From: Verrucomicrobiota bacterium | Lineage (GTDB): Bacteria > Verrucomicrobiota > Verrucomicrobiia > JADLBR01 | Direction: 5' to 3' | DNA: 43,789 nt | Assembly (NCBI GenBank): GCA_029560585.1 | Contig: JAKQKQ010000173.1 | Location: 1-43,789 of the forward strand | Part shown: positions 7,431 to 43,744 of the stretch, piece after piece | Layout: each line of letters starts with the position of its first letter | Position numbering within the stretch: position 1 is the first letter of the stretch | The notes under the pieces: model-generated | The model's database searches: none | Told to the model about the DNA's origin: nothing | What the model saw: the letters and a program-made list of their open reading frames with translations, nothing else | Program-made: the position numbers and the translations under genes

Positions 7431-8176
7431 CCCCGCGACGTGCTCTGGCGGTTCGGGAGTCGGCGGGGGCCGGCCAGCGGCCGAACCACAGCACGATCGC
7501 GACGTCTATCTCGGGGATGGGGCCGGGGCGGATCGAGGACCTCTTCGCGCAGGTGCCGCTGGTGTGCACGGAGGAGGGGCTGCTGGGCGGGACGCACTTC
7601 GCCATCGACGGCTGCAGGATGTCGTCGAACGCGTCCAAAGAGTGGAGCGGCAAGCGGTCCGACCTGATCAGGAAGAGGAACAAGCTCAGGGCGGCTGATC
7701 TGCCCCGCCGGGGTGCAGATGCACCGCAACGGCGAGCGCTTCAAGGGCCGCGACGGGGCGATGGCGACCAGCTACCGCGCCGCCCAGGGGGCGTGCGACC
7801 GCTGCCACCTGCGCTCAAAGTGCCTGAGGGATCCCGGCAACGCACGGCCCGGCAGGTCCGCATCTTCTACCGACGCGGATCGGGTGGCCTAAGTCACCCG
7901 ATGAAGGCCAAGATCGAAACGCCGCTCGGGCGTGGCATCTGCTCGCAGCGGCTGGGGATCGTCGAACCGGTCTTCGCCAACATCGCCGCGCAGAAGGGCC
8001 TGGATCGATTCACGCTGCGCGGCCGGGCCAAGGTCAACATCCAGTGGAAGCTCTACTGCATCGTCCACAACCTCGAGAAAGTCGCCGGAAAGGGACGAAG
8101 ATGGAACCGACCGACACCTTGGCCGGCCCGCAGGCGTCTGGCCGGCAGAAATCCATCGATCCCATACGATAGATAG
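7425..8176 (+). pseudogene. IS1182-family transposase remnant, internal deletion and frameshifts
   Basis: The middle of an IS1182-type transposase is recognisable: RPNHSTIATSISGMGPGRIE, then LLGGTHFAIDGCRMSSNASK with a catalytic Asp and the SNASKEWSG signature. The frame then jumps. The segment ICPAGVQMHRNGERFKGRDG with GACDRCHLRSKCL lies one frame over. A one-base deletion in the CCCGG run near 7834 then restores the first frame for RTARQVRIFYRRGSGG and RGRAKVNIQWKLYCIVHNLE. About 100 family residues between KRNKLR and the cysteine knuckle are missing, and so is the N-terminus. The normal stop is lost, so the frame runs on to 8176. It cannot make an active transposase. Confidence 0.85.
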
Positions 8177-10553: not shown

Positions 10554-10735
10554 AGGAAAACCGCGCTCCGAAGAACGCGACTTTGAAGGGTCTGGGGCCA
10601 CCGGTCCGCGAAACACACTCCGCAACCGCGAAAAAACCCAGCCTTAGCCTGACCTTTCCCAATGAATGGCTCTCATGGCGCGGTTTTCCCAGAGCCCGGA
10701 ATTTCACAGCCGGCAGGCCGTGAAATATCCGGGCT
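10554..10735 (-). repeat. Palindrome-ended dispersed repeat, copy A
   Basis: Read on the minus strand, about 180 bases match 43518-43700 at close to 88% identity. The block begins with a 43-base near-perfect palindrome (10693-10735; AGCCCGGA...ATTTCACGGCC arms). It then runs through TGGGAAAACCGCGCCATG and GAGTGTGTTTCGCGGA to GGAGCGCGGTTTTCC. The distal hairpin present in copy B is degenerate here. The rest of 10454-10806 shows no gene. Confidence 0.8.
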
Positions 10736-10806
10736 AGGTGAAACACCCCATCCCCGCACTCTTGCGGTCGGGGGAAATGGCTCCACGTTTTCCCGCAATC
10801 TCTGCC

Positions 10807-12585
10807 ATGAGTGATCAGAGCGACAGGACCGAAGGTCACCCCAGACCGTGGACGGCCCCGCAGCGCGGGACCGCGGTTCTGGCCATCGGGCAGGCGCTCT
10901 CCCTCGCGGCCCTGGCTTCGCTGGCGGCATCCATGCGCCTCCCATTCCTGTGGGCGCACGCGGTTTCCTTCTTCTGGGGAACGGCGGTCGCGCTAAACAT
11001 GTTAACCTTCCTGCGTGGTCCGGACAGCTTTGCGCGGGGTCCCGCACAGGGCAAGGTCGCCCGGGCATTTTGCGCCTCCCTGCCCTTCTTGTTCCTGGTG
11101 CTGGGTTTGGCGGGCGCGGTCACTTCCGTTTATGCCTGCCGCTGGGGCGCGCGCGTGACCCTGCCCGCTGACCGGCCCGAGGTCCTCCGGCTGGCCGCAA
11201 TCTTGAGCGGCGTCGCCGCCTTCGTCCTCTTCTTTGCGGGACGATGGGCGCAGTCATCGCACCGGCAATGCCAGGATGCGGTGCTTCGCAGCGCCATCCA
11301 TTTCAACTGGGTGGGGACCATTGTGCACCTGCTGGGAGCCGCCGCCCTATTCCTATACCTCTACTCGGGAATCGATGGACTCATCTGGACCGGGAGGGCC
11401 GTGGCGCTCGCGACCCTGGTGCTCGTCTGCGATGCCGCGGTGGGCCTCCTGGCGGACTTCTACCGGCCCGCGGTGAATCGCGGCACGAGCCCGCTCGGAC
11501 GCAGCGCCCTGCTGGATTGGACGTTAACCCGCGCCAATCCGGTGAGGCGGATTGCCCTTGCCATCGAGACGACCTACGGCATCAAACTCGGCGAGATCTG
11601 GGCCTTCAGGTTTTTGCGGGGGATGCTCGCGCCCCTCGCGTTGCTGGGGACAATGATGGCGTGGGCATCGAGTTGCCTGACGGTCATCCCCGCGGAAAGC
11701 GAGGGGGTGAGGATTCGAATGGGCCGATTCCAGCCCGAGCCTCTCCCGCCCGGCATTCACACGGGCTGGCCATGGCCTCTCGAGACGATCGCCATCGTGC
11801 CAACGCGCCGCATCGAGGAGATCCACCTGGGCTATGATGAGGATCTCGGGGGGCCGATCCTCTGGAACGAGCGGCATTATCGCGGCGAGAAAAACATGCT
11901 CGCGGGCAACGGTGAGGAATTGCTCACGGTCAGCATCCTCATCCACTACCGGATCGCCAATCCCGTGGCGTACCTCCTACACGCGCGCGGCCACGCGGAG
12001 GCCCTGACGCACATCGCCTACAGCGAACTGGTGCATGTCCTCGCGGCCCGCGAAAGCTTCCGCGTCATGATCCTCGAGCGCGAGGAGATCGCCGAGCGCA
12101 TGCGCGCGACGCTGCAGGCCGACGCGGACCGGTTCGGCCTCGGCATCGAGGTGCTGTTCGTGGGCCTGCGCGACATCCACCCCCCGGTGGACGTGGCGCC
12201 CGCGTACCAGGAAGTCATCAGCGCCGAGGAACAGCGCCACGCCATGGTCTATGGGGGCCAAAAGTATCGCGCGCTCAACATGCCCGCCGCCGAGGCGAGG
12301 TCCAACAAGTTGAGGCGCGAGGCCGAATCCAAGGGTCAGGCCCGAGTGACCCAGGCCTCGGGCGAGGCCAACAAATTCCGCGAGATCGCGTCCGCCTTTC
12401 AGGCCGCGCCAGAGTTTTTGCGCGAGCGATATCGGCTCGACCTCCTCGAAGAAATCCTGCCGGGCCGCCCCAAGATCGTCGTTGATGCCGATGCGCCGCC
12501 CGCAGGACCCGCGCTCCTCTACCTGCCGCTCGACCCTGGATACTCCATGCTGCCGCTGATGGAGGACAAGACTCAGATGAAGTGA
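10807..12585 (+). CDS. Polytopic SPFH/Band 7 protein, HflK-like
   Basis: This protein of 592 residues has a long membrane domain followed by an SPFH domain. Seven hydrophobic segments precede it, the last at about residues 270-293 (LAPLALLGTMMAWASSCLTV). The SPFH part starts with ESEGVRIRMGRFQPEPLPPG and GWPWPLETIAIVPTRRIEEI, the HflK pattern, and contains LTVSILIHYRIANPVAYLL. A coiled-coil helix rich in Glu, Ala and Arg follows (EARSNKLRREAESKGQARVT). HflK proper has only one membrane helix, so the N-terminal six-helix block is an addition. It heads a four-gene operon, eight bases before the next gene. The start is uncertain: ATG 10777 is also in frame. Confidence 0.8.
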   Translation: MSDQSDRTEGHPRPWTAPQRGTAVLAIGQALSLAALASLAASMRLPFLWAHAVSFFWGTAVALNMLTFLRGPDSFARGPAQGKVARAFCASLPFLFLVLGLAGAVTSVYACRWGARVTLPADRPEVLRLAAILSGVAAFVLFFAGRWAQSSHRQCQDAVLRSAIHFNWVGTIVHLLGAAALFLYLYSGIDGLIWTGRAVALATLVLVCDAAVGLLADFYRPAVNRGTSPLGRSALLDWTLTRANPVRRIALAIETTYGIKLGEIWAFRFLRGMLAPLALLGTMMAWASSCLTVIPAESEGVRIRMGRFQPEPLPPGIHTGWPWPLETIAIVPTRRIEEIHLGYDEDLGGPILWNERHYRGEKNMLAGNGEELLTVSILIHYRIANPVAYLLHARGHAEALTHIAYSELVHVLAARESFRVMILEREEIAERMRATLQADADRFGLGIEVLFVGLRDIHPPVDVAPAYQEVISAEEQRHAMVYGGQKYRALNMPAAEARSNKLRREAESKGQARVTQASGEANKFREIASAFQAAPEFLRERYRLDLLEEILPGRPKIVVDADAPPAGPALLYLPLDPGYSMLPLMEDKTQMK

Positions 12586-12592
12586 ACCCAAG

Positions 12593-13561
12593 ATGAAAAC
12601 CAGAGACCTCCTGTTCCGATTCCTCGTGGCCGCCATCGTGGCCACGATCCTCGCCTTCGTCATGCTTTCGTTCCAGGTCAGGCAGGACCAGATGGCGGTC
12701 GTGACCCGCCTCGGCCGCCCCGTTCGAGTCATCGAGGAACCGGGCCTCTATTTCAAGTACCCCTGGCCCATGGAGTCCGCCCGGCTTTTCGACCGCCGAC
12801 TGATGGTCTTTGAGAGCCGTCCCGCCGAGGCCCTGACGCAGGATAAGCGCAACGTGATCTTGTTCGTCTATGCGGCCTGGCAGATCCAGGATCCCCTGCT
12901 CTTCCTCCAGAGTGTCGGCGGCGAAGAGAATGCGCGGCAGAAACTCGACGGTGTCGTCACCGGTGCGAAGAATACCGTGCTGGGGCAATACGACTTCCAG
13001 AACCTCGCCTCCACCAACCGGGCCGAGGTGAAACTCGAGGAGATTGAAAAACGCCTGACCGACGTCGTCGCGGAGCGGGCCTTGGCCGCTTTCGGGATCG
13101 CCGTGCGCCAGGTCGGCATCTGCCGCCTCGGGCTGCCAGAGTCCAATACGCGTTTCGTCTTCGAGCGCATGCGCGCCGAACGCGCGCAGATCGCGGAGCA
13201 CTATCGTTCCATCGGCGCGAAAGAGGCGGACGATATCCGCGCACGCACGGATTCGGAGGCGACCGTACTCGTGGCCGAGGCCGAGCGCTCCGCCGCCGAG
13301 ACGATCGCCAAGGCGGAAGCCGAGTCCGCGCGGCTCGTCGCGGATGCCTACCATCGCGACCCGGACCTCTACGGATTCCTCAGGCGGCTGGACGCTTTGC
13401 GCAAGGTCGGCGACGTGAATACCACGCTGATCCTCGACACGAGCACACCTCCCTTCGACGCGCTGCGCGTGCCGCTCGGCGGCCGCACGCCAGCACAAGC
13501 GCCAACGCCGACACAAGCGCCGACACAAGCGCCGGCCAATCCGACGGCTCGCCCGGAGTGA
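12593..13561 (+). CDS. SPFH/Band 7 protein, HflC-like
   Basis: This protein of 322 residues has one N-terminal anchor (FRFLVAAIVATILAFVML). A typical HflC SPFH domain follows: DQMAVVTRLGRPVRVIEEPG, LYFKYPWPMESARLFDRRLM, NVILFVYAAWQIQDPLLFLQ. The conserved FGIAVRQVGICRLGLPES and the helix FERMRAERAQIAEHYRSIGA with EAERSAAETIAKAEAESARL fit HflC, the inhibitor/regulator partner in the FtsH-HflKC complex. The last 25 residues are a Pro/Thr/Gln/Ala repeat (PTPTQAPTQAPA) not found in classical HflC. It overlaps the next gene's possible GTG start. Here the partner would be the two flanking SPFH proteins. No ftsH gene is adjacent. Confidence 0.88.
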   Translation: MKTRDLLFRFLVAAIVATILAFVMLSFQVRQDQMAVVTRLGRPVRVIEEPGLYFKYPWPMESARLFDRRLMVFESRPAEALTQDKRNVILFVYAAWQIQDPLLFLQSVGGEENARQKLDGVVTGAKNTVLGQYDFQNLASTNRAEVKLEEIEKRLTDVVAERALAAFGIAVRQVGICRLGLPESNTRFVFERMRAERAQIAEHYRSIGAKEADDIRARTDSEATVLVAEAERSAAETIAKAEAESARLVADAYHRDPDLYGFLRRLDALRKVGDVNTTLILDTSTPPFDALRVPLGGRTPAQAPTPTQAPTQAPANPTARPE

Positions 13562-13563
13562 CC

Positions 13564-14640
13564 ATGGCCGATCGAGAAGAGGTGACGCGATCCGCACCGT
13601 CCGCAACGCTGGAGGCGCTTCGGGCCTCGATCGGGGTGCTGCGCTGGGCGCTGATGCTCCTGATCGTCATCTACCTCGTCTCCAACATTCGCGTCATCAG
13701 CCCCAACGAAAACGGGCTGGTCCTGCGATTTGGCCGCCTGACCGGACATGTGCATCCGCCCGGCCTGCTGTTGGCGCTCCCCTTCCCGATCGATCACGTG
13801 ATCGTCGTGCCCACGCGAACCGTCCAGGAGATCGAGCTGCAGGAATGGTCCGCGCCGCACGCCGCGGCGCCCGCCGCCGATGCTTCGGCCGGAGCGTCGC
13901 CCCCGGTCAAAGAAACCCTCCACCCAGTCAACGATGGCTACCTGCTCACGGGCGACGATAACCTGGTCCACGCGACCTTCCTGGTCCGCTACACCATCTC
14001 GGATCCCGAGGCCTATGCCCTGAATACCAAGGATACGGAAGGGTTCCTCCGCAAGACCGCGGGCGCCAAGGACACGAAGGAGCTGCTGCGCAAGATCCTG
14101 CGCGATGCGGCGACGGAGGCCGTGCAATCCGTGGGGGTCGATGACGCCCTCACGAGCGGCCAGGAGCAACTTCGCAACGAGTGCCGACGGATCGCCCAGG
14201 GCAAAATCGACCGGCTGCAGCTCGGCATCGCGCTTCAGGCGTGGGAGATCCGTGAGATTATTCCCGCCCGACAAGTCCTCCAGTCGTTCGAGGAAGTGGT
14301 CAGCGCCCAGGTCGAGGCGCGCACGATGACGGAGAAGGCGAACGCCTATCGCCAGGCGCGGCTTCCCGAGATCGAGGCGCGCGTCTTCCGGATCAAGCAG
14401 GAGGCCAGCGGCCAGGCCCAGCGCACGATCGTGAAGGCGCGCGGCGAGGCCACCAGTTTCCTGGCCCAGTGGGATGCCGCGCGAGAAAACCCCGATGCTT
14501 TCCGCATACGGCGACACCTCGAGGTCATCGAGTACATCATGCGCCGCACGTGGTTGCCCGCCATCAACGCGGGCAAAGGCCTTCCACTGCAACTGCTCAT
14601 AAAGCCCCCCACACATGATCCAGAGCCAGTCACTGAGTGA
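13564..14640 (+). CDS. Third SPFH/Band 7 protein, HflK-like
   Basis: This protein of 358 residues has a single N-terminal membrane helix (LRWALMLLIVIYLVSNIRVI) and an SPFH domain starting at SPNENGLVLRFGRLTGHVHP. An Ala/Pro-rich insert (about residues 98-118) lies between the first strands. The core continues with LVHATFLVRYTISDPEAYAL, and the region QLGIALQAWEIREIIPARQV matches the HflK signature IxVxxVxIxxxxPP. The coiled-coil part (EARVFRIKQEASGQAQRTIV) follows. I chose ATG 13564 because GGAG lies just upstream; GTG 13558 is an alternative. It overlaps the metal ATPase gene by 26 bases, which indicates one mRNA and coupled translation. Confidence 0.82.
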   Translation: MADREEVTRSAPSATLEALRASIGVLRWALMLLIVIYLVSNIRVISPNENGLVLRFGRLTGHVHPPGLLLALPFPIDHVIVVPTRTVQEIELQEWSAPHAAAPAADASAGASPPVKETLHPVNDGYLLTGDDNLVHATFLVRYTISDPEAYALNTKDTEGFLRKTAGAKDTKELLRKILRDAATEAVQSVGVDDALTSGQEQLRNECRRIAQGKIDRLQLGIALQAWEIREIIPARQVLQSFEEVVSAQVEARTMTEKANAYRQARLPEIEARVFRIKQEASGQAQRTIVKARGEATSFLAQWDAARENPDAFRIRRHLEVIEYIMRRTWLPAINAGKGLPLQLLIKPPTHDPEPVTE

Positions 14641-16525
14641 TGTCGAGGCCCCCCCGGCCTCCACCGCACAGAGCGCCCTCGCCCGACGCCTCGTCGTCCT
14701 GGCACTTGGCGCCGTCCTGTTGCTCACCGGCGGCCTGCTGCGGCTCTTCCGGCCCGAACAGGATTCGCTTGCCTCGCTCTTCGGGATGCTCGCGATGCTG
14801 TCGCTTGGCGCGCCGGTCCTCTGGGACGCGATCACCTCGATGCGCGTACACGGATTTGAGGCCACGCGTTTCTACATGGACCAATTCATCGCGCTCGCAC
14901 TGGCGGCCTGCTTCGCCGCGGGCGAATACTTCACCGGCTCGATCGTGGCCATCGTGCTGATCTCGGGAGAATTGCTCGAGGAACGCAGCATGATCGGAGT
15001 CCAGCAGGCCGTCAGGGACCTGCTGAGCCTGACCCGGGTCTTCGCGCAGCGCCTTACGGATTCCGGCGAGGAGCGCGTCGACTCCGCCACCCTCAGGCCC
15101 GGCGATACCGTCCGGGTGCGCCCCGGGGACACGGTGCCCGCGGACGGCAAGGTCGTGCGCGGCACATCCACGATCGATCAAGCCAGCGTCACCGGCGAGT
15201 CTTTGCCAGTGGACGTCTCGGAGGGCGGTCGCGTCTTCGCGGGCACCGCCAATCTCACCGGTTCAATCGATGTCGCCGTTGAGCGCTCCGGCGAGGCCAC
15301 CCTCATAGGTCGGGCCGGGCAGATCGTCCTGGAGGCGCAGCAATCGCGCGCGCCGATCATCCGCCTCACGGAGGAATACGCCAGCTACTACACCCCCATG
15401 GTGCTATTGCTCGCGGGCTTCGTGCTGTTCTTCACCAGCGAAATCCAGCGCGCCATCTCGGTGATCATCGTCAGCATCCCGTGCGCATTCGTCCTCGCCG
15501 GACCATCCACCATGATCGCCGCGCTGGCGACGGCCTCGCGACTGGGCATCCTCGTCAAGAGCGTCCGCTTCTTCGAGACCGCCAGCCAGATCGACACGGT
15601 CGTGTTCGACAAGACCGGCACCCTCACCCACGGGCAGCTCAGCGTGGCGGCCATCCGCCCATCCGCGCCATTCACAGAAAGCGAGGCCCTCGCCCTCGCC
15701 GCGGCGGTCGAGTGCCACTCGCGCCATCCGGTCGCCAAGGCCATCACCCACGAGGCGCGCCGCCGCGAACTTGCGCTGCCAGAGGCCGAGTCGCTGCGCG
15801 AAGTCGCCGGCCAGGGCATCGAGGCCCAGGTGGATCGCCGCAAGATCCGCGTCGGCCGACTGAGCTGGATCCAGTCCGAGGGTGTTGCCGCAGGCGATGA
15901 TCGCGATGCCGAGGCGGGCACGAGCGCCCTCGGCGTGGCGGTCGACGACCGCCTGGCCGCCATCATCTGCCTCAGGGACAATCTCCGCGACGAGGCACGC
16001 AACATCGGCCGCCGCCTCGGGGATCTCGGGGTGCGCCGCTTCCTCATGGTCACCGGCGACCACAAGGATGTTGCGCGCCGCATCGCGGACGAGGTGGGCT
16101 TCAGCGAGGTCATCGCGGAAACCCTCCCAGAGGAGAAACTCGCCGTCGTCCGAAGACTCAAGCAGGAGGGGCATCGCGTTGCCGTTGTCGGCGACGGCAT
16201 CAACGACGCCCCCGCCCTCGCCGCCGGCGACCTCAGCGTCGCCATGGGAGCCCTCGGCAGCGACCTCGCCATCCAGACCGCCGACGTCGCCCTCATGCAC
16301 AACGACCTCCATCGGCTTCCCACACTGATCCGCATCTCAAGGAGCGCGCTCCACCTCATCAACCAGAACCTCCTCTGCGGCCTGATCTTCATCGGCATCG
16401 CCATCATCACCTCGGCGGCCGGCTGGGTCAGCCCCATCGCCGCCGCATTCATCCACGAGTTCAGCGCCTTCTTCGTCATTTTCAACGGCGCCCGCCTCCT
16501 CCGCTTCGACGAACCCAAGGGCTGA
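14615..16525 (+). CDS. P1B-type (heavy-metal) translocating ATPase
   Basis: This 636-residue cation pump has all P-type ATPase hallmarks: TGESLP (about residue 193), the phosphorylated Asp332 in FDKTGTLTHG, the SRHP histidine-proline motif that marks P1B pumps, MVTGDHKDVARRIA, and GDGINDAPALA near residue 525. The last helices contain IHEFSAFFVIFNGARLLR, the usual P1B ending. There is no N-terminal metal-binding domain. The transmembrane metal site is SIPCAF (about 287-292), with Ile where Cys, Ser or Thr usually precedes Pro-Cys, so the ion cannot be predicted. Its ATG lies inside the preceding SPFH gene. The operon position suggests that the SPFH proteins scaffold or regulate the pump. Confidence 0.9.
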   Translation: MIQSQSLSDVEAPPASTAQSALARRLVVLALGAVLLLTGGLLRLFRPEQDSLASLFGMLAMLSLGAPVLWDAITSMRVHGFEATRFYMDQFIALALAACFAAGEYFTGSIVAIVLISGELLEERSMIGVQQAVRDLLSLTRVFAQRLTDSGEERVDSATLRPGDTVRVRPGDTVPADGKVVRGTSTIDQASVTGESLPVDVSEGGRVFAGTANLTGSIDVAVERSGEATLIGRAGQIVLEAQQSRAPIIRLTEEYASYYTPMVLLLAGFVLFFTSEIQRAISVIIVSIPCAFVLAGPSTMIAALATASRLGILVKSVRFFETASQIDTVVFDKTGTLTHGQLSVAAIRPSAPFTESEALALAAAVECHSRHPVAKAITHEARRRELALPEAESLREVAGQGIEAQVDRRKIRVGRLSWIQSEGVAAGDDRDAEAGTSALGVAVDDRLAAIICLRDNLRDEARNIGRRLGDLGVRRFLMVTGDHKDVARRIADEVGFSEVIAETLPEEKLAVVRRLKQEGHRVAVVGDGINDAPALAAGDLSVAMGALGSDLAIQTADVALMHNDLHRLPTLIRISRSALHLINQNLLCGLIFIGIAIITSAAGWVSPIAAAFIHEFSAFFVIFNGARLLRFDEPKG

Positions 16526-24204: not shown

Positions 24205-24903
24205 CTATGGGGCAATATAGATGAGCCACGCCCCACCCAAGATCACGAGAACACCGCAGACGATCTTGACGACCGACACGCCTCTCGAGCGTTCGTTCCA
24301 ACGCAGATAGCGCTCGACGAGTTCGGTCGATGTGCCGGCCGCCACGATCACGGCGCAGTGGCCCATGCCATAGGCCAAGAGCAGGAGCGCGCCATAGGCA
24401 GCGTCACTGGCAGCCAGCTTGAACGTCACGCCAAGCATCGGGGCCATGTATGCAAAAGTGCAGGGCCCCAGCGCAACGCCGAAGACCAGCCCCAGAATAA
24501 ATGCCGCGAAGAAGCCCCTCCCCTTCATGTTGACCTGGCCCGGTGCCGACCACGGCATGGGCATCGCACCCACCAAGTGCAGTCCCATGGCGAAGAAGAT
24601 CAGCGCGACAAAATAATTCGCCCACGACCCAACGTCGCCCAGGATTCGCCCTGCCGCCGCAGTGATGGCGCCGATGGCGCCGATCGTTATCAGGATGCCC
24701 ACGGCGAAAAGCGACGATGTCCAGAATGCGCGCCTCGTGGTTGCGGCGCCCTGCTCGCTGATGAACCCCACGATCAGCGGGATGCTGGCGAGATGGCACG
24801 GGCTGAGGACGATGCTCAAAACACCCCAGGCGACGGCCGCCATCAGGGCAATGGCCGGTGCCCCCTCGATCGCTTTTGCCAATCCCGAGAACAGCGCTTC
24901 CAT
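24205..24903 (-). CDS. CcdA/DsbD-like thiol-disulfide membrane transporter
   Basis: This 232-residue polytopic membrane protein has about six helices. It carries the two conserved membrane cysteines of the CcdA/DsbD-beta family in SPCHLASIPLIVGF (near residue 35) and LGPCTFAYMAPMLGV (near 150). CcdA passes electrons from cytoplasmic thioredoxin to proteins outside the membrane. Here the likely acceptor is the anchored thioredoxin encoded just upstream in the operon. The ATG at 24903 is preceded by GAGGG; the 23 extra in-frame residues upstream lack a site. It is the last gene of the arsR-permease-thioredoxin unit. Confidence 0.88.
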   Translation of the reverse strand: MEALFSGLAKAIEGAPAIALMAAVAWGVLSIVLSPCHLASIPLIVGFISEQGAATTRRAFWTSSLFAVGILITIGAIGAITAAAGRILGDVGSWANYFVALIFFAMGLHLVGAMPMPWSAPGQVNMKGRGFFAAFILGLVFGVALGPCTFAYMAPMLGVTFKLAASDAAYGALLLLAYGMGHCAVIVAAGTSTELVERYLRWNERSRGVSVVKIVCGVLVILGGAWLIYIAP

Positions 24904-24923
24904 GCCAACCCTCTTCCCTCGAA

Positions 24924-25016
24924 TCAGGGTTTGATCTTGTCGAACAGCGGCGGCAACCGTCGCTGGTAACAATCACGGATGGTGGCCTCGTCCTCGCCCA
25001 GCGGGGCGAGGTTCAT
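24924..25016 (-). CDS. 30-residue protein coupled to thioredoxin gene, unknown
   Basis: This small frame runs from MNLAPLGEDEATIRDCYQ to LPPLFDKIKP. Its ATG overlaps the thioredoxin stop (ATGA), and its stop lies 20 bases before the ccdA-like start. GGGGG lies about seven bases upstream of the ATG. It is polar, with one cysteine and no membrane segment. Its tight position in an operon in which other junctions also overlap suggests a real gene. I do not recognise it. Confidence 0.5.
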   Translation of the reverse strand: MNLAPLGEDEATIRDCYQRRLPPLFDKIKP

Positions 25017-25447
25017 GGCGTGCCCCCGAGATCCACCCCCAGCTCCTTCCATTTCGCGAGGATCTCCTCCCGCCCGAAAAAGCCCTCGTGACGCCACAGC
25101 TCCTTCCCGGTGACATCGTAGAAGATCTGGGTCGGGATCAGGTTGATGTTGTATTTGTCACTCGCGCCCGGATTTTCCCAAACGTCGATGAACTCCACTA
25201 CCAACCGGCCCGCATATTCCTTTTTCAACTGCTCGAGGATGGGCGCCATCTTCTTGCAGGGAATGCACTTGCCTGCCCCGAGATCGACGAGCCGAGGAAG
25301 GGGTCTTTCCGCTGGCGCATTTGCCGTCGCAACCGGTGCGGCCGCCCCCTTCACCGGCGTGCCGCGATTCGCGCGTTTGGCGACGAAAGCCGCGGCCGCC
25401 AGTGCCACGACCACACCGATAATAAGCGCCTTGGCGGATGCTTTCAT
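25013..25447 (-). CDS. Membrane-anchored thioredoxin-fold protein (CIPC)
   Basis: This protein of 144 residues has an N-terminal helix (ALIIGVVVALAAAAFVA) that anchors or exports it, a Pro/Ala linker, and a thioredoxin domain. The active site is GKCIPCKKMAPILEQL (near residue 60), with the cis-proline in NLIPTQIFYD and the final strand and helix GFFGREEILAKWKELG. It would act on the outer face as reductase, charged by the CcdA-like protein. Its ATG overlaps the stop of the mini-thioredoxin gene (ATGA), and its own stop overlaps the next small gene, so the three are translated together. Confidence 0.9.
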   Translation of the reverse strand: MKASAKALIIGVVVALAAAAFVAKRANRGTPVKGAAAPVATANAPAERPLPRLVDLGAGKCIPCKKMAPILEQLKKEYAGRLVVEFIDVWENPGASDKYNINLIPTQIFYDVTGKELWRHEGFFGREEILAKWKELGVDLGGTP

Positions 25448-25701
25448 ACGCTGGTCGTTTTCTCAGAAGCGGCGGCGAGGATCCGCTTCATCTCCCCGAT
25501 GTCTGGCACCCGGCCCGAAATCTTCACCGCGCCATCGACCACGAGCGCCGGGGTCATCATGACCCGCAGCGCCATGATCTGTCTGATGTCCGTTATCTTG
25601 TCGATCTCGAATGGCCCCCCGAGTTGGCGGGCGGCCTCCTCGGCTATCTCGTAAAGCTTCTTGCACTTCATGCATCCGGTTCCGAGTACGAGTATCTTCA
25701 T
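25444..25701 (-). CDS. Mini-thioredoxin (Trx_3-type redox-active disulfide protein)
   Basis: This 85-residue protein starts MKILVLGTGCMKCKKLYEIA, with the CxxC (CMKC) of the Thioredoxin_3 family, and has the cis-Pro loop in VMMTPALVVDG and ends with EMKRILAAAS. The length is normal for the family. Genes of this kind regularly stand beside DUF318/ArsP permeases. They probably supply or take thiols, or bind the metalloid, at the cytoplasmic face. A strong AGGAGG lies upstream of the ATG. The permease stop is 21 bases away. Confidence 0.92.
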   Translation of the reverse strand: MKILVLGTGCMKCKKLYEIAEEAARQLGGPFEIDKITDIRQIMALRVMMTPALVVDGAVKISGRVPDIGEMKRILAAASEKTTSV

Positions 25702-25722
25702 CGCGCATCCTCCTGGGGGTTT

Positions 25723-27039
25723 CTATCGTGGAAAGCAGTGGCCAAACCACGTGCCGGTGACGGTCGCCATGACCACCACCAGCAAAACGAATACGGCGGT
25801 CTTCCGGGCGCCGACCACCTTGCCGATCACCAGCATGCTGGGCAGCGAGAGTGCGGGCCCGGCCAAAAGCAGCGCCATGAGGGGGCCGTTGTGCATGCCC
25901 AGCCGCCGCAGGGCCTCGCAGATCGGTATCTCCGTCAGCGTTGCAAAATACCAGAAGGCGCCAATCACGCTGGCCACCAAGTTCGAGCGCAGCGAGTTGT
26001 CGCCCACGAATCCGGCGACGTAGGCCTCTGGCAAAAGCGCCCCCACCACGCCAACCACGAACACCCCGCCAAAAAGAAGCGGGACGAGCGTTTTCGCGAA
26101 ATCCCAGGTGTTGGACATCCACAGGTTCAGCTCGTCGCGCTCAAACCATCTCCAGACCATCAGCAACACCAATGCGCCCATCAGCCCAGCGAGCACCCAC
26201 TTCTGATGGTTGATCGCGATGACCCATGTCTTCGCCTCTTCGACGGACGCGATCGACGCCTTGGGCAGCGTGACCTTTTCGCCCGCGGTCTTTCCGCCCC
26301 ATGGCTCACTGAGCTGAAACACCACTTCATGGCGCATCTCCTGAAGCTGCACCGCTGCGAATTTCGTGCCGTCTGCCCGGTGCACCACCACATCGCCGGG
26401 GTTGTACCAGTCGCTGAAGACCAGGAAGGCCACCATCGCGGCCAGAAAACACGAGGTCTTCCAAAGCGGGCGCCTCGGCGCCTCTGGCGCGGCCAGATCG
26501 GCGGCCCCCGCAAAGCGCTCCCCCTCGCTCCGGCGGAAGATGACGGCCATCATCGCCCCGATGATCACGGCAAAGAACACCGCGCCCACCGCCCGCCCGG
26601 CCCCGATCGGAATGCCCAGCACCCGCGCGGTAAGGAAGATTGCCAGGATGTTGATCGCCGGGCCCGAGTACAGAAACGCCGATGCCGGCCCCAGGCCCGC
26701 GCCCATGGTGTATATGCCCGCGAACACCGGCAGCACGCTGCAGGAGCACACCGCCAATATGACCCCCGAGACCGAAGCCACCCCGTAGGCCAAGACCTTG
26801 TTCGATTTCGGCCCGAGATGCCGCATCACGGAGCCCTGCGACAAGAACGTGATGATCGCCCCCGCGATGAACATCGCCGGCAGCACGCACGCCAACGTGT
26901 GGTTCCGCACGTACCACTGCAGCAACCGGAATCCTTCCAGAATCGCGCGGCTGAAGGCCCCGCCCTCCGACAGCGGCATGAAGTACGCCGCGACGAACAC
27001 CCCGGCCATCCACAAAAATACCTTCAGGTCTCGCCTCAT
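25723..27039 (-). CDS. ArsP/DUF318-type permease
   Basis: This 438-residue protein has about ten membrane helices in two bundles, as in the DUF318 (permease, YraQ/ArsP) family. The first bundle has VSGVILAVCSCSVLPVFAG, with the Cys-Ser-Cys-Ser of ArsP, and SAFLYSGPAINILAIFLTAR. The second has FWYFATLTEIPICEALRRLG and ALLLAGPALSLPSMLVIGKV. A long central soluble loop of about 130 residues (AVIFRRSEGER to AINHQKWVLAG) is larger than in short ArsP proteins. ArsP exports trivalent organoarsenicals, and other members may move other metalloids. Neighbouring arsR, thioredoxins and CcdA support a thiol-linked export role. The ATG at 27039 lies five bases after the arsR gene. Confidence 0.85.
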   Translation of the reverse strand: MRRDLKVFLWMAGVFVAAYFMPLSEGGAFSRAILEGFRLLQWYVRNHTLACVLPAMFIAGAIITFLSQGSVMRHLGPKSNKVLAYGVASVSGVILAVCSCSVLPVFAGIYTMGAGLGPASAFLYSGPAINILAIFLTARVLGIPIGAGRAVGAVFFAVIIGAMMAVIFRRSEGERFAGAADLAAPEAPRRPLWKTSCFLAAMVAFLVFSDWYNPGDVVVHRADGTKFAAVQLQEMRHEVVFQLSEPWGGKTAGEKVTLPKASIASVEEAKTWVIAINHQKWVLAGLMGALVLLMVWRWFERDELNLWMSNTWDFAKTLVPLLFGGVFVVGVVGALLPEAYVAGFVGDNSLRSNLVASVIGAFWYFATLTEIPICEALRRLGMHNGPLMALLLAGPALSLPSMLVIGKVVGARKTAVFVLLVVVMATVTGTWFGHCFPR

Positions 27040-27043
27040 ATCC

Positions 27044-27400
27044 TCAGCCCCCCGACCTGCCCGCGCTTGCCATGGCCGCCTCGCCAGTCGCCCCGCGCGA
27101 CCGCCCCTCACACACGTCCGCCACGCAATCGAAAAGACGCACCACGCACCGCGTCCTCAGCCTGTAGAACACCTGCTGCCCCCGCTTCTCGTCCTCCACC
27201 ACCCCGGCCTCCCGCAACACCGCCAGATGCCGCGACACCGTCGGCATCTCAAATCCCACCAGCGCCTTCAGCTCGCACACGCACCGCTCGCCCCGCGATA
27301 ATTCGTCCACCATCATCAGCCGCGCCGGATGCCCCAGCGCCTTGAACACCCGCGCCGCCACCCGATGCCGTCCCACCACTGAAGCGCACGCCTTGGCCAT
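27044..27400 (-). CDS. arsR: ArsR-family repressor (upstream of permease unit)
   Basis: This 118-residue winged-helix repressor has the ArsR layout. ALGHPARLMMVDELSRGERC is helix 1-2, CVCELKALVGFEMPTVSRHL is the recognition region with the CVC arsenite-binding pair, and AGVVEDEKRGQQVFYRL is the wing. CVADVC near the end adds two more thiols. The start ATG at 27400 gives the standard N-terminus; a longer frame to 27436 is less likely. It should repress its own unit (permease, thioredoxins, ccdA) and release on As(III) or a related metalloid. The AT-rich GAATATATGG just upstream, in otherwise GC-rich DNA, is a plausible operator region. Confidence 0.9.
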   Translation of the reverse strand: MAKACASVVGRHRVAARVFKALGHPARLMMVDELSRGERCVCELKALVGFEMPTVSRHLAVLREAGVVEDEKRGQQVFYRLRTRCVVRLFDCVADVCEGRSRGATGEAAMASAGRSGG

Positions 27401-27520
27401 ATATTCGTTATTTAGCAAAACAGCGAAGTCTTGCAACCGATTTTCCTCGGCGCTGTCGCGGCCCCGCTGGCGATGGGCACAGTCGGCGCTTTGTTGGCTC
27501 CCTCACTGCGATGACGATAC

Positions 27521-28563
<1,043 letters not shown>

Positions 28564-28567
<4 letters not shown>

Positions 28568-29202
28568 GTCTTTCGCGCCTTCACCTCCAGGCTGGTGATA
28601 TAATCGGAGGGTTTTGCCCCCGGTGGCAGCTCCGCCATGATTTTCTGATAGAGCGGATCCTGCCAGTCCACCATGCCGTCCACGTAGCCAGACTTGCTGG
28701 CCATGACGATCTGACCCAGACCCGCGTCCCTGGCCATTTGCTCGGTCTCGGATGCCAGCACGGCGCCGGGCAGCGCCTCGACGAACGTGCGTATCTCGTC
28801 CCGAACGCGCCGGTAAACAGCCAGCTTCTCCTCGGCCTCGGGCATGTTCTTTGTCAGCTCGGGCGGGTCATCGAACCCCACATGGATGACCTTCGCCTTC
28901 CCGGGGAAGACAGGGCAATGCCCGCTGGCGTGGCCGCAGACGGTGATCACGTAGTCGGGGACCAGGTCGCCCAGCTCGTCCACCGTCTTCGACCGCTGTC
29001 GAGAGATGTCCACGCCCGCCTCCGCCATCACGCGCACCGCGTGCGGGTTCATGCCGTGCCTCTCTATGCCGGCGGAATACGGCTCGATGACATCGGCCTT
29101 GAGGTGCCGCGCCCAGCCCTCCGCCATCTGGCTGCGGCACGAGTTCCCCGTGCAGAGGAAAAGGACCCTCGTCTTGGCTCTCATCCCACCGCCCTGCCGC
29201 AT
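28564..29202 (-). CDS. arsC: Thioredoxin-type arsenate reductase ArsC with C-terminal extension
   Basis: This protein of 212 residues reduces arsenate to arsenite. The N-terminal 140 residues are a low-molecular-weight phosphatase-like ArsC with VLFLCTGNSCRSQMAEGWAR (P-loop Cys), DVIEPYSAGIERHGMNPHAV, and VITVCGHASGHCPVFPGK with the two resolving cysteines. VIHVGFDDPPELTK contains the DP motif. Usual ArsC proteins end soon after the next helix (VRDEIRTFVEAL). Here about 65 further residues follow (from LASETEQMARDAGLGQ to DYITSLEVKARKT), which I do not recognise. The ATG at 29202 has GGGGGAG six bases upstream; ATG 29184 and 29217 are alternatives. Confidence 0.92.
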
Positions 29203-29221
29203 GATCGCTCCCCCCATTCTC

Positions 29222-43519: not shown

Positions 43520-43744
43520 CCCGGATATTTCACAGCCTTGCGGGCTGTGAAATTCCGGGCTCTGGGAAAACCGCGCCATGGGAGCCATTTATTGGGAAAG
43601 GTCTGGCAAAGACTGGGATTTTTCGCGTTTGCAGAGTGTGTTTCGCGGATCGGTGGCACCAGACCCTCCAAAATCGCGTTTTTCGGAGCGCGGTTTTCCT
43701 TTGAGCCTGCATTGTTTCACGCGGAAGCGTGAAATATGCAGGCT
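43518..43744 (+). repeat. Palindrome-ended dispersed repeat, copy B
   Basis: This 227-base unit is bounded by two hairpins. The first, at 43518-43561, has arms AGCCCGGA.ATTTCACAGCC and GGCTGTGAAAT.CCGGGCT around TTGC. The second, at 43704-43744, has arms AGCCTGCA..TTTCACGC and GCGTGAAA..TGCAGGCT around GGAA. Both hairpins carry TTTCAC/GTGAAA and end in GGCTAG or similar. An inverted partner lies at 10554-10735. The last 45 bases of the window show nothing. Confidence 0.85.

Follow-up and report, generated by a model that had tools for sequence, protein, structure and literature searches.

Why should three different SPFH proteins be encoded together with a heavy-metal pump? In Escherichia coli, HflK and HflC act with FtsH, and the best-known cage of the HflK/HflC type encloses FtsH. 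At positions 10807-16525 of the stretch analysed here (43,789 nucleotides of a Verrucomicrobiota bacterium, assembly GCA_029560585.1, contig JAKQKQ010000173.1; hereafter "the window"), genes for a polytopic HflK-like protein (K1), an HflC-like protein (C) and a second HflK-like protein (K2) are instead followed by that of a P1B-type metal ATPase. This operon most likely encodes an SPFH-scaffolded transporter for zinc-like ions, of which we infer the complex, the substrate and the direction. In particular, we consider it rather probable that the products form a single metal-transport complex of the kind encoded at the hmtA locus of Pseudomonas aeruginosa, with a cage of the HflK/HflC type serving the pump, not FtsH, and with a zinc-like metal as cargo. 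This is proposed because the operon recurs, its ATPases form a single clade, a version with ATPase and SPFH domain in one protein exists, and His-rich tails are found on an SPFH subunit. The genes are the following:

10807-12585, + strand: K1, polytopic HflK-like protein, 592 amino acids (aa); Band_7 at E 3e-16; hflK below cut-off
12593-13561, + strand: C, HflC-like SPFH protein, 322 aa; over the NCBIfam hflC cut-off (158 vs 134 bits)
13558-14640, + strand: K2, second HflK-like SPFH protein, 360 aa; GTG start; Band_7 at E 1e-19; hflK below cut-off
14615-16525, + strand: P1B-type metal ATPase without HMA domain, 636 aa; TIGR01525 at 536 bits; IPC in transmembrane helix 6 (TM6), HE in the last helix (HEFSAFF)

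They run head to tail on the + strand, with a gap of 7 bp between K1 and C and overlaps of 4 bp (C/K2) and 26 bp (K2/ATPase), as close together as the first-pass annotation, made from the sequence without database searches, had described; an alternative in-frame GTG for K1 lies at 10738, upstream of 10807. The products named in that annotation agree with Pfam and NCBIfam. Pfam finds Band_7 in K1, C and K2 (E 3e-16 to 4e-22), and E1-E2_ATPase and Hydrolase, with no HMA domain, in the pump, which in NCBIfam clears TIGR01525 and TIGR01512 (Cd family) and narrowly misses TIGR01511 (Cu).

A conserved module with its own ATPase clade

Is this gene order a peculiarity of one genome? In the same class, many genomes hold K1 relatives, and the K1-C-K2-ATPase block was seen in some 30 of these, which come from many families. 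A scan of named genomes with an 8-row K1 alignment gave 347 relatives, the best 80 of which (L082-L161) were taken for locus analysis; these belong mostly to Verrucomicrobiota (one labelled Lentisphaerae), with Planctomycetota (Phycisphaerae, Brocadiia) besides and partial loci in metagenome-assembled genomes (MAGs) labelled Omnitrophota and Auribacter. Among these 80, the K1-C-K2 order is kept in 65 of the 66 testable loci. The gene directly after K2 is that of the ATPase in 62 of 63 testable loci (60 by script, plus L113 and L114, whose ATPase call merely extends too far upstream); the exceptions are L139, where K2 was not called, and L136, a Planctomycetota locus which has no ATPase and an ATP-binding cassette (ABC) gene next. 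In some Planctomycetota (L201, L205, L208, L217-L219) the ATPase lies at the opposite end of the cluster. Matches to the K1 profile were obtained in 196 of 388 genomes of the phylum (E<=1e-40; the weaker ones being SPFH-only) and in 57 of 294 Planctomycetota (E<=1e-75). Furthermore, Klebsiella aerogenes and Rhizobium tumorigenes have plasmids with the four-gene set, where the annotations read HflK, HflC or SPFH protein and P-type ATPase, and relatives of both K1 and the ATPase occur on further Rhizobium, Paraburkholderia and Burkholderia plasmids. The order is more than chance, because it recurs with K1 proteins that are merely 20-30% identical between the genomes sharing it. A chance neighbourhood was thus rejected, as was a single-genome oddity, the module being present in Verrucomicrobiota, Planctomycetota and proteobacterial plasmids. 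Trio and pump, whose coupling had been noticed from the window alone, form a genuine, conserved unit in this sense.

Some loci deserve separate mention. The K1 of L109, from a MAG labelled Omnitrophota, shares 85% identity with one from a verrucomicrobial genome, which suggests transfer or a mislabelled contig. At L237 (8579-10564) and L238 (7831-9810), K1-like genes occur without C, K2 or ATPase and adjoin an unidentified gene of about 550 aa, and in L135 and L137 a second P1B ATPase (an open frame of 914 aa) lies directly upstream of the cluster.

Trees, built by a quick method and with SH-aLRT supports only, were another check that the first-pass annotation had proposed. The ATPases of the trio loci, from Planctomycetes-Verrucomicrobia-Chlamydiae (PVC) bacteria and proteobacterial plasmids alike, make up a single clade (support 100) that excludes E. 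coli ZntA and CopA, sCoaT and the remaining P1B ATPases that these genomes encode. Inside it, the window clade joins the plasmid copies and one planctomycete (86), and these stand against a mostly ABC-bearing PVC group (99). K1, C and K2 likewise fall into one clade each, apart from classical HflK/HflC (supports 68 to 99, some below 95), the K2 clade with supports of 99 and 91 and the C clade beside classical HflC. None of the three groups with E. coli HflK/HflC or with the separate hflKC pairs of the relatives as an orthologue would, and these separate clades argue for an old set of three paralogues retained together.

What of FtsH? No ftsH lies in the window, as the first reading of the sequence had noted, and none adjoins the locus in the relatives; a regular-expression test, up to 8 kb each side, found no FtsH-like open reading frame (ORF) in the best 80 loci. 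An ftsH-linked operon was rejected, since ftsH is never adjacent. In 34 of 35 genomes, the sister genome included, FtsH has its gene at another site, at least 34 kb off where both are on one contig. Peptidase_M41 (FtsH) has no match in the assembly of this genome (95.7% complete), which is probably an assembly gap. A classical hflK-hflC pair is present separately in the same genome as the trio (L074). SPFH genes without the pump and beside ftsH, which would have spoken against the proposed unit, are thus not the rule: a minority of Planctomycetota have no adjacent ATPase, and none have ftsH there.

Fusion of pump and SPFH domain

Pump and SPFH domain are also found in one polypeptide. In seven genomes (this one and six others) from two families, a P1B ATPase is fused C-terminally to an HflK-type SPFH domain, giving proteins of 1000-1090 aa (G000:C3 in this genome, L073 10972-16177; also L076 and L078), and in the loci read the fused gene is followed by its own HflC and HflK. 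The form was not found in 294 Planctomycetota, in a search without a positive control there. The fused ATPases lie outside the trio-ATPase clade, which argues that pump and SPFH protein were probably coupled twice, separately. P1B ATPases have a known topology of eight helices, and a ninth helix after these would place the fused SPFH domain in the periplasm, as in HflK. In this genome, the fused locus adjoins cobalt/nickel uptake genes (cbiM, cbiQ and an ABC ATPase, CbiMQO), and the K2 of that set has a very His-rich tail.

Relation to the hmtA locus and to other known systems

The first-pass annotation knew of no described function for this combination, which does not hold: P. aeruginosa PA2434-PA2439 has the same gene types and order, within the Zur/zinc-starvation response (PMC4542158, PMC8531726, PMC11761036). 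There, PA2439 (HflK family), PA2438 (HflC), PA2437 (HflC family) and PA2435 (HmtA) belong to one cluster, induced in a znuA mutant (PMC4542158, Table 2); Zur was bound at the PA2439 promoter (PMC8531726), and proteins of the cluster are up under zinc depletion (PMC11761036). According to Lewinson 2009 (as cited in PMC9147137), HmtA imports Zn and Cu. In strain PA14, three SPFH genes, PaFlo5-7, form one predicted operon, whose deletion had mild effects only, in conditions without metal tests (PMC13086221); we infer that these are the SPFH genes of the hmtA cluster. No account of a general SPFH trio-P1B system came up in the papers searched. Set against the published PA2439-PA2435 order, the window operon has the gene types and order of an HmtA-type locus, namely two or three SPFH genes and then a P1B ATPase. 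The published cluster differs from it by the extra PA2436 and PA2434, and the window operon by the IPC/HE of its ATPase and by the lack of an evident Zur box in the window. By this analogy, a divergent relative of the HmtA-type SPFH-P1B module is the reading that suits the window operon best.

Further signs of metal are found across the family. His-rich N-terminal tails, often with CxxC, are carried by 46 of 135 ATPase ORFs and by 21 of 140 K2 ORFs (some genomes being counted twice), and such tails also occur on HflC and the ATPase of Rhizobium and on K2 of two fused sets. Near some copies lie an ABC-3 permease with a DtxR-FeoA regulator, or a CobW/ZigA-like GTPase with FeoB.

The motifs DKTGT, TGES, HP and GDGxND are all intact in the window ATPase and, together with the x-P-C of TM6, place it among the P1B ATPases. 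The SIPC that had been remarked on in place of CPC was confirmed (VSIPCAF, with Ile at the first Cys position), but it does not define the module: in TM6 and the last helix, most members carry CPC/HN, the plasmid relatives among them, and the pair [IML]PC/HE is confined to the window's subclade. The closest solved structure by sequence is that of the PIB-4 ATPase sCoaT (7qbz), and the PIB-4 signature is SPC in TM6 with HEGxT in the last helix (PMC8880997). Judged from these motifs, the pair of the window clade is akin to this signature yet not the same. The likeness of the window ATPase to sCoaT and ZntA/CadA lies in the P1B core, the eight helices, the x-P-C and the last-helix HE (and, for sCoaT, the missing HMA domain), whereas its TM6 has I for S, its last helix HEFSA for HEGxT, and it belongs to a clade separate from sCoaT; by these marks it falls outside the PIB-4 subgroup.

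With the HflK/HflC-FtsH cage of E. coli, the trio shares SPFH domains, a single helix before the SPFH domain, a long coiled coil and both HflK- and HflC-type subunits; unlike it, there are three paralogues in their own clades here, K1 has a six-helix membrane domain, and a metal ATPase is adjacent in place of ftsH. The flotillin/stomatin-NfeD operons (SPFH1, 2 and 5) also join an SPFH gene to a conserved partner (PMC2636767), but this partner is NfeD, and an ATPase goes unmentioned in that survey.

The membrane domain of K1

K1 comprises a membrane domain of six helices (~residues 14-221), a seventh helix (266-288), the SPFH domain and a long coiled coil (461-533). The six helices precede the SPFH part both in the AlphaFold2 model of the window K1 (pLDDT 80) and in that of a second member (pLDDT 79), and the top structural matches of these models are transporters of the cation diffusion facilitator (CDF) family, YiiP and the ZnT proteins. 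Against YiiP, the predicted models superpose with Z 19.1, 3.2 A over 199 residues (window K1) and Z 20.4, 2.8 A over 200 residues (second member), so that the likeness to YiiP/FieF/ZnT is one of predicted fold; the window model also matches HflK (Z 16.7). Foldseek points the same way, weakly (E ~0.03 and above). In the K1-CDF profile alignment, of Prob 5.8, the TM5 ligands H153 and D157 of FieF face Phe and Gly, and the Asp pair of TM2 was judged absent by eye only. In contrast to CDF transporters, K1 lacks the TM5 ligands and the cytoplasmic CDF domain and is joined to an SPFH protein. This part may be read as a pseudo-CDF domain, with the predicted fold of the family and with the transport-site ligands of TM5 gone; that the polytopic part has a CDF-transporter-like predicted fold adds to what the first-pass annotation had noticed.

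Neighbouring ABC genes

Most PVC members have a gene for an ABC-2-like membrane protein (P) before the block and, after it, genes for an ABC ATPase (A), a permease resembling ABC-2 (M) and a protein T, P-K1-C-K2-ATPase-A-M-T being the commonest full arrangement. T (L120 16241-17755 and relatives) is a protein of about 500 aa with no Pfam or NCBIfam match that regularly ends this eight-gene PVC cluster. P, A, M and T are missing from the window clade and from the two plasmid loci read, some Planctomycetota carry the trio and the ATPase only, and the fused loci read have no ABC genes of this kind beside them.

Proposed mechanism and alternative readings

How could such a complex work? K1, C and K2 would build a hetero-oligomeric SPFH dome over the periplasmic face of the inner membrane, like HflK/HflC, and the P1B ATPase, not FtsH, would be the membrane enzyme within it or docked to it. 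Because it lacks the zinc ligands that true CDF transporters have in TM5, the degenerate domain of K1 would probably dock or regulate the pump, and the cytosolic His-rich tails on the ATPase and K2 of many relatives would concentrate a zinc-like metal near it. By analogy with hmtA, the module would most likely work under scarcity of a zinc-type metal and transport Zn2+ (or Co2+/Cu+) through the inner membrane, perhaps into the cell. The first-pass proposal that the trio houses or gates the transporter would fit here; the cage round the pump, the metal, the direction and an HmtA-like behaviour of the window copy are all drawn by analogy. It is possible, and put forward tentatively, that caged metal transporters of this kind are widespread. 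In these, a three-subunit SPFH dome with a built-in pseudo-CDF domain would enclose not FtsH but a P1B pump, joined by an ABC exporter in many PVC bacteria; His-rich tails of the pump and of an SPFH subunit would gather metal, and pump and cage subunit would have been fused at least once. If true, SPFH domes serve membrane enzymes other than FtsH, and hundreds of genes annotated as protease modulators are predicted to encode metal-transport subunits. The pairing of trio and pump would also give a general frame to the isolated hmtA observations in Pseudomonas, and would offer a reason, open to test, why a P1B importer of an atypical kind might need partners.

Several points weigh against the metal-transport complex as proposed. 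The CDF relation of K1 rests on predicted structure, because the profile comparison, its sole sequence test, gave only Prob 5.8. In the window copy a His-rich tail is lacking and the IPC/HE site is unusual, and a simple palindrome scan, which may not match the motif of this phylum, found no Zur-like box upstream in the window. The likeness to the hmtA locus rests on published gene order, not on sequence. Five of 20 sampled Planctomycetota loci (L209-L213) have the trio and ABC genes with no adjacent ATPase. Moreover, to our knowledge, P1B ATPases of known mechanism are exporters, HmtA being called atypical.

This last point leads to a serious rival, given somewhat less than an even chance, in which the same complex would export Zn2+, Co2+ or Cd2+ from the cytoplasm to the SPFH-enclosed periplasmic space, for detoxification or for loading periplasmic metalloproteins. 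The nearest families (TIGR01512, ZntA, sCoaT) export, the HE motif of the window clade resembles that of PIB-4 (PMC8880997), the His-rich tails are on the cytosolic, entry side, and in one relative genome (G029) the trio-locus ATPase is the only strong P1B ATPase; pulling the other way are the induction of the hmtA cluster by zinc depletion and the reported import by HmtA (PMC4542158, PMC11761036), as well as the uptake-type genes (CbiMQO, ABC-3 permease, CobW/ZigA, FeoB) beside some copies.

Does the trio need the pump at all? It might be a variant modulator of FtsH, as HflK/HflC are in E. coli, or a general membrane-microdomain scaffold, with the ATPase merely a co-regulated neighbour, and the Planctomycetota without an adjacent ATPase would suit this; it is nonetheless an unlikely account, as the ATPase is kept beside the trio in nearly all tested loci, belongs to a clade specific to them and is fused to an SPFH domain elsewhere, the same genome has a classical hflK-hflC pair of its own apart from the trio, ftsH is never adjacent, and K2 carries His-rich tails in relatives. 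Similarly improbable is that the PVC trio serves chiefly as scaffold for the ABC-2 exporter (P, A, M) with T, the P1B ATPase being accessory and the window operon a reduced form. The commonest full arrangement and the five Planctomycetota with trio and ABC genes favour such a role, but the trio and ATPase stand alone in the window clade, on proteobacterial plasmids and in some Planctomycetota, the fused form lacks these ABC genes in the loci read, and the tails favour metals.

Further observations

Upstream of the operon, an imperfect palindrome (GAATTTCAC ... GTGAAATATCC) spans window 10699-10730 and has an inverted copy at 43523-43555, near the window end; it is perhaps a dispersed repeat. 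At L084, an inverted repeat (CTATTGA ... TCAATAG, ~7470-7500) upstream of K1 is by eye reminiscent of a Fur-family box. Elsewhere in the window (~24205-29217), a DsbD_TM membrane protein, a large permease, an ACR3-like transporter and a low-mass ArsC-like phosphatase, all assigned by eye save DsbD_TM (Pfam), make up what looks like an arsenic cluster.

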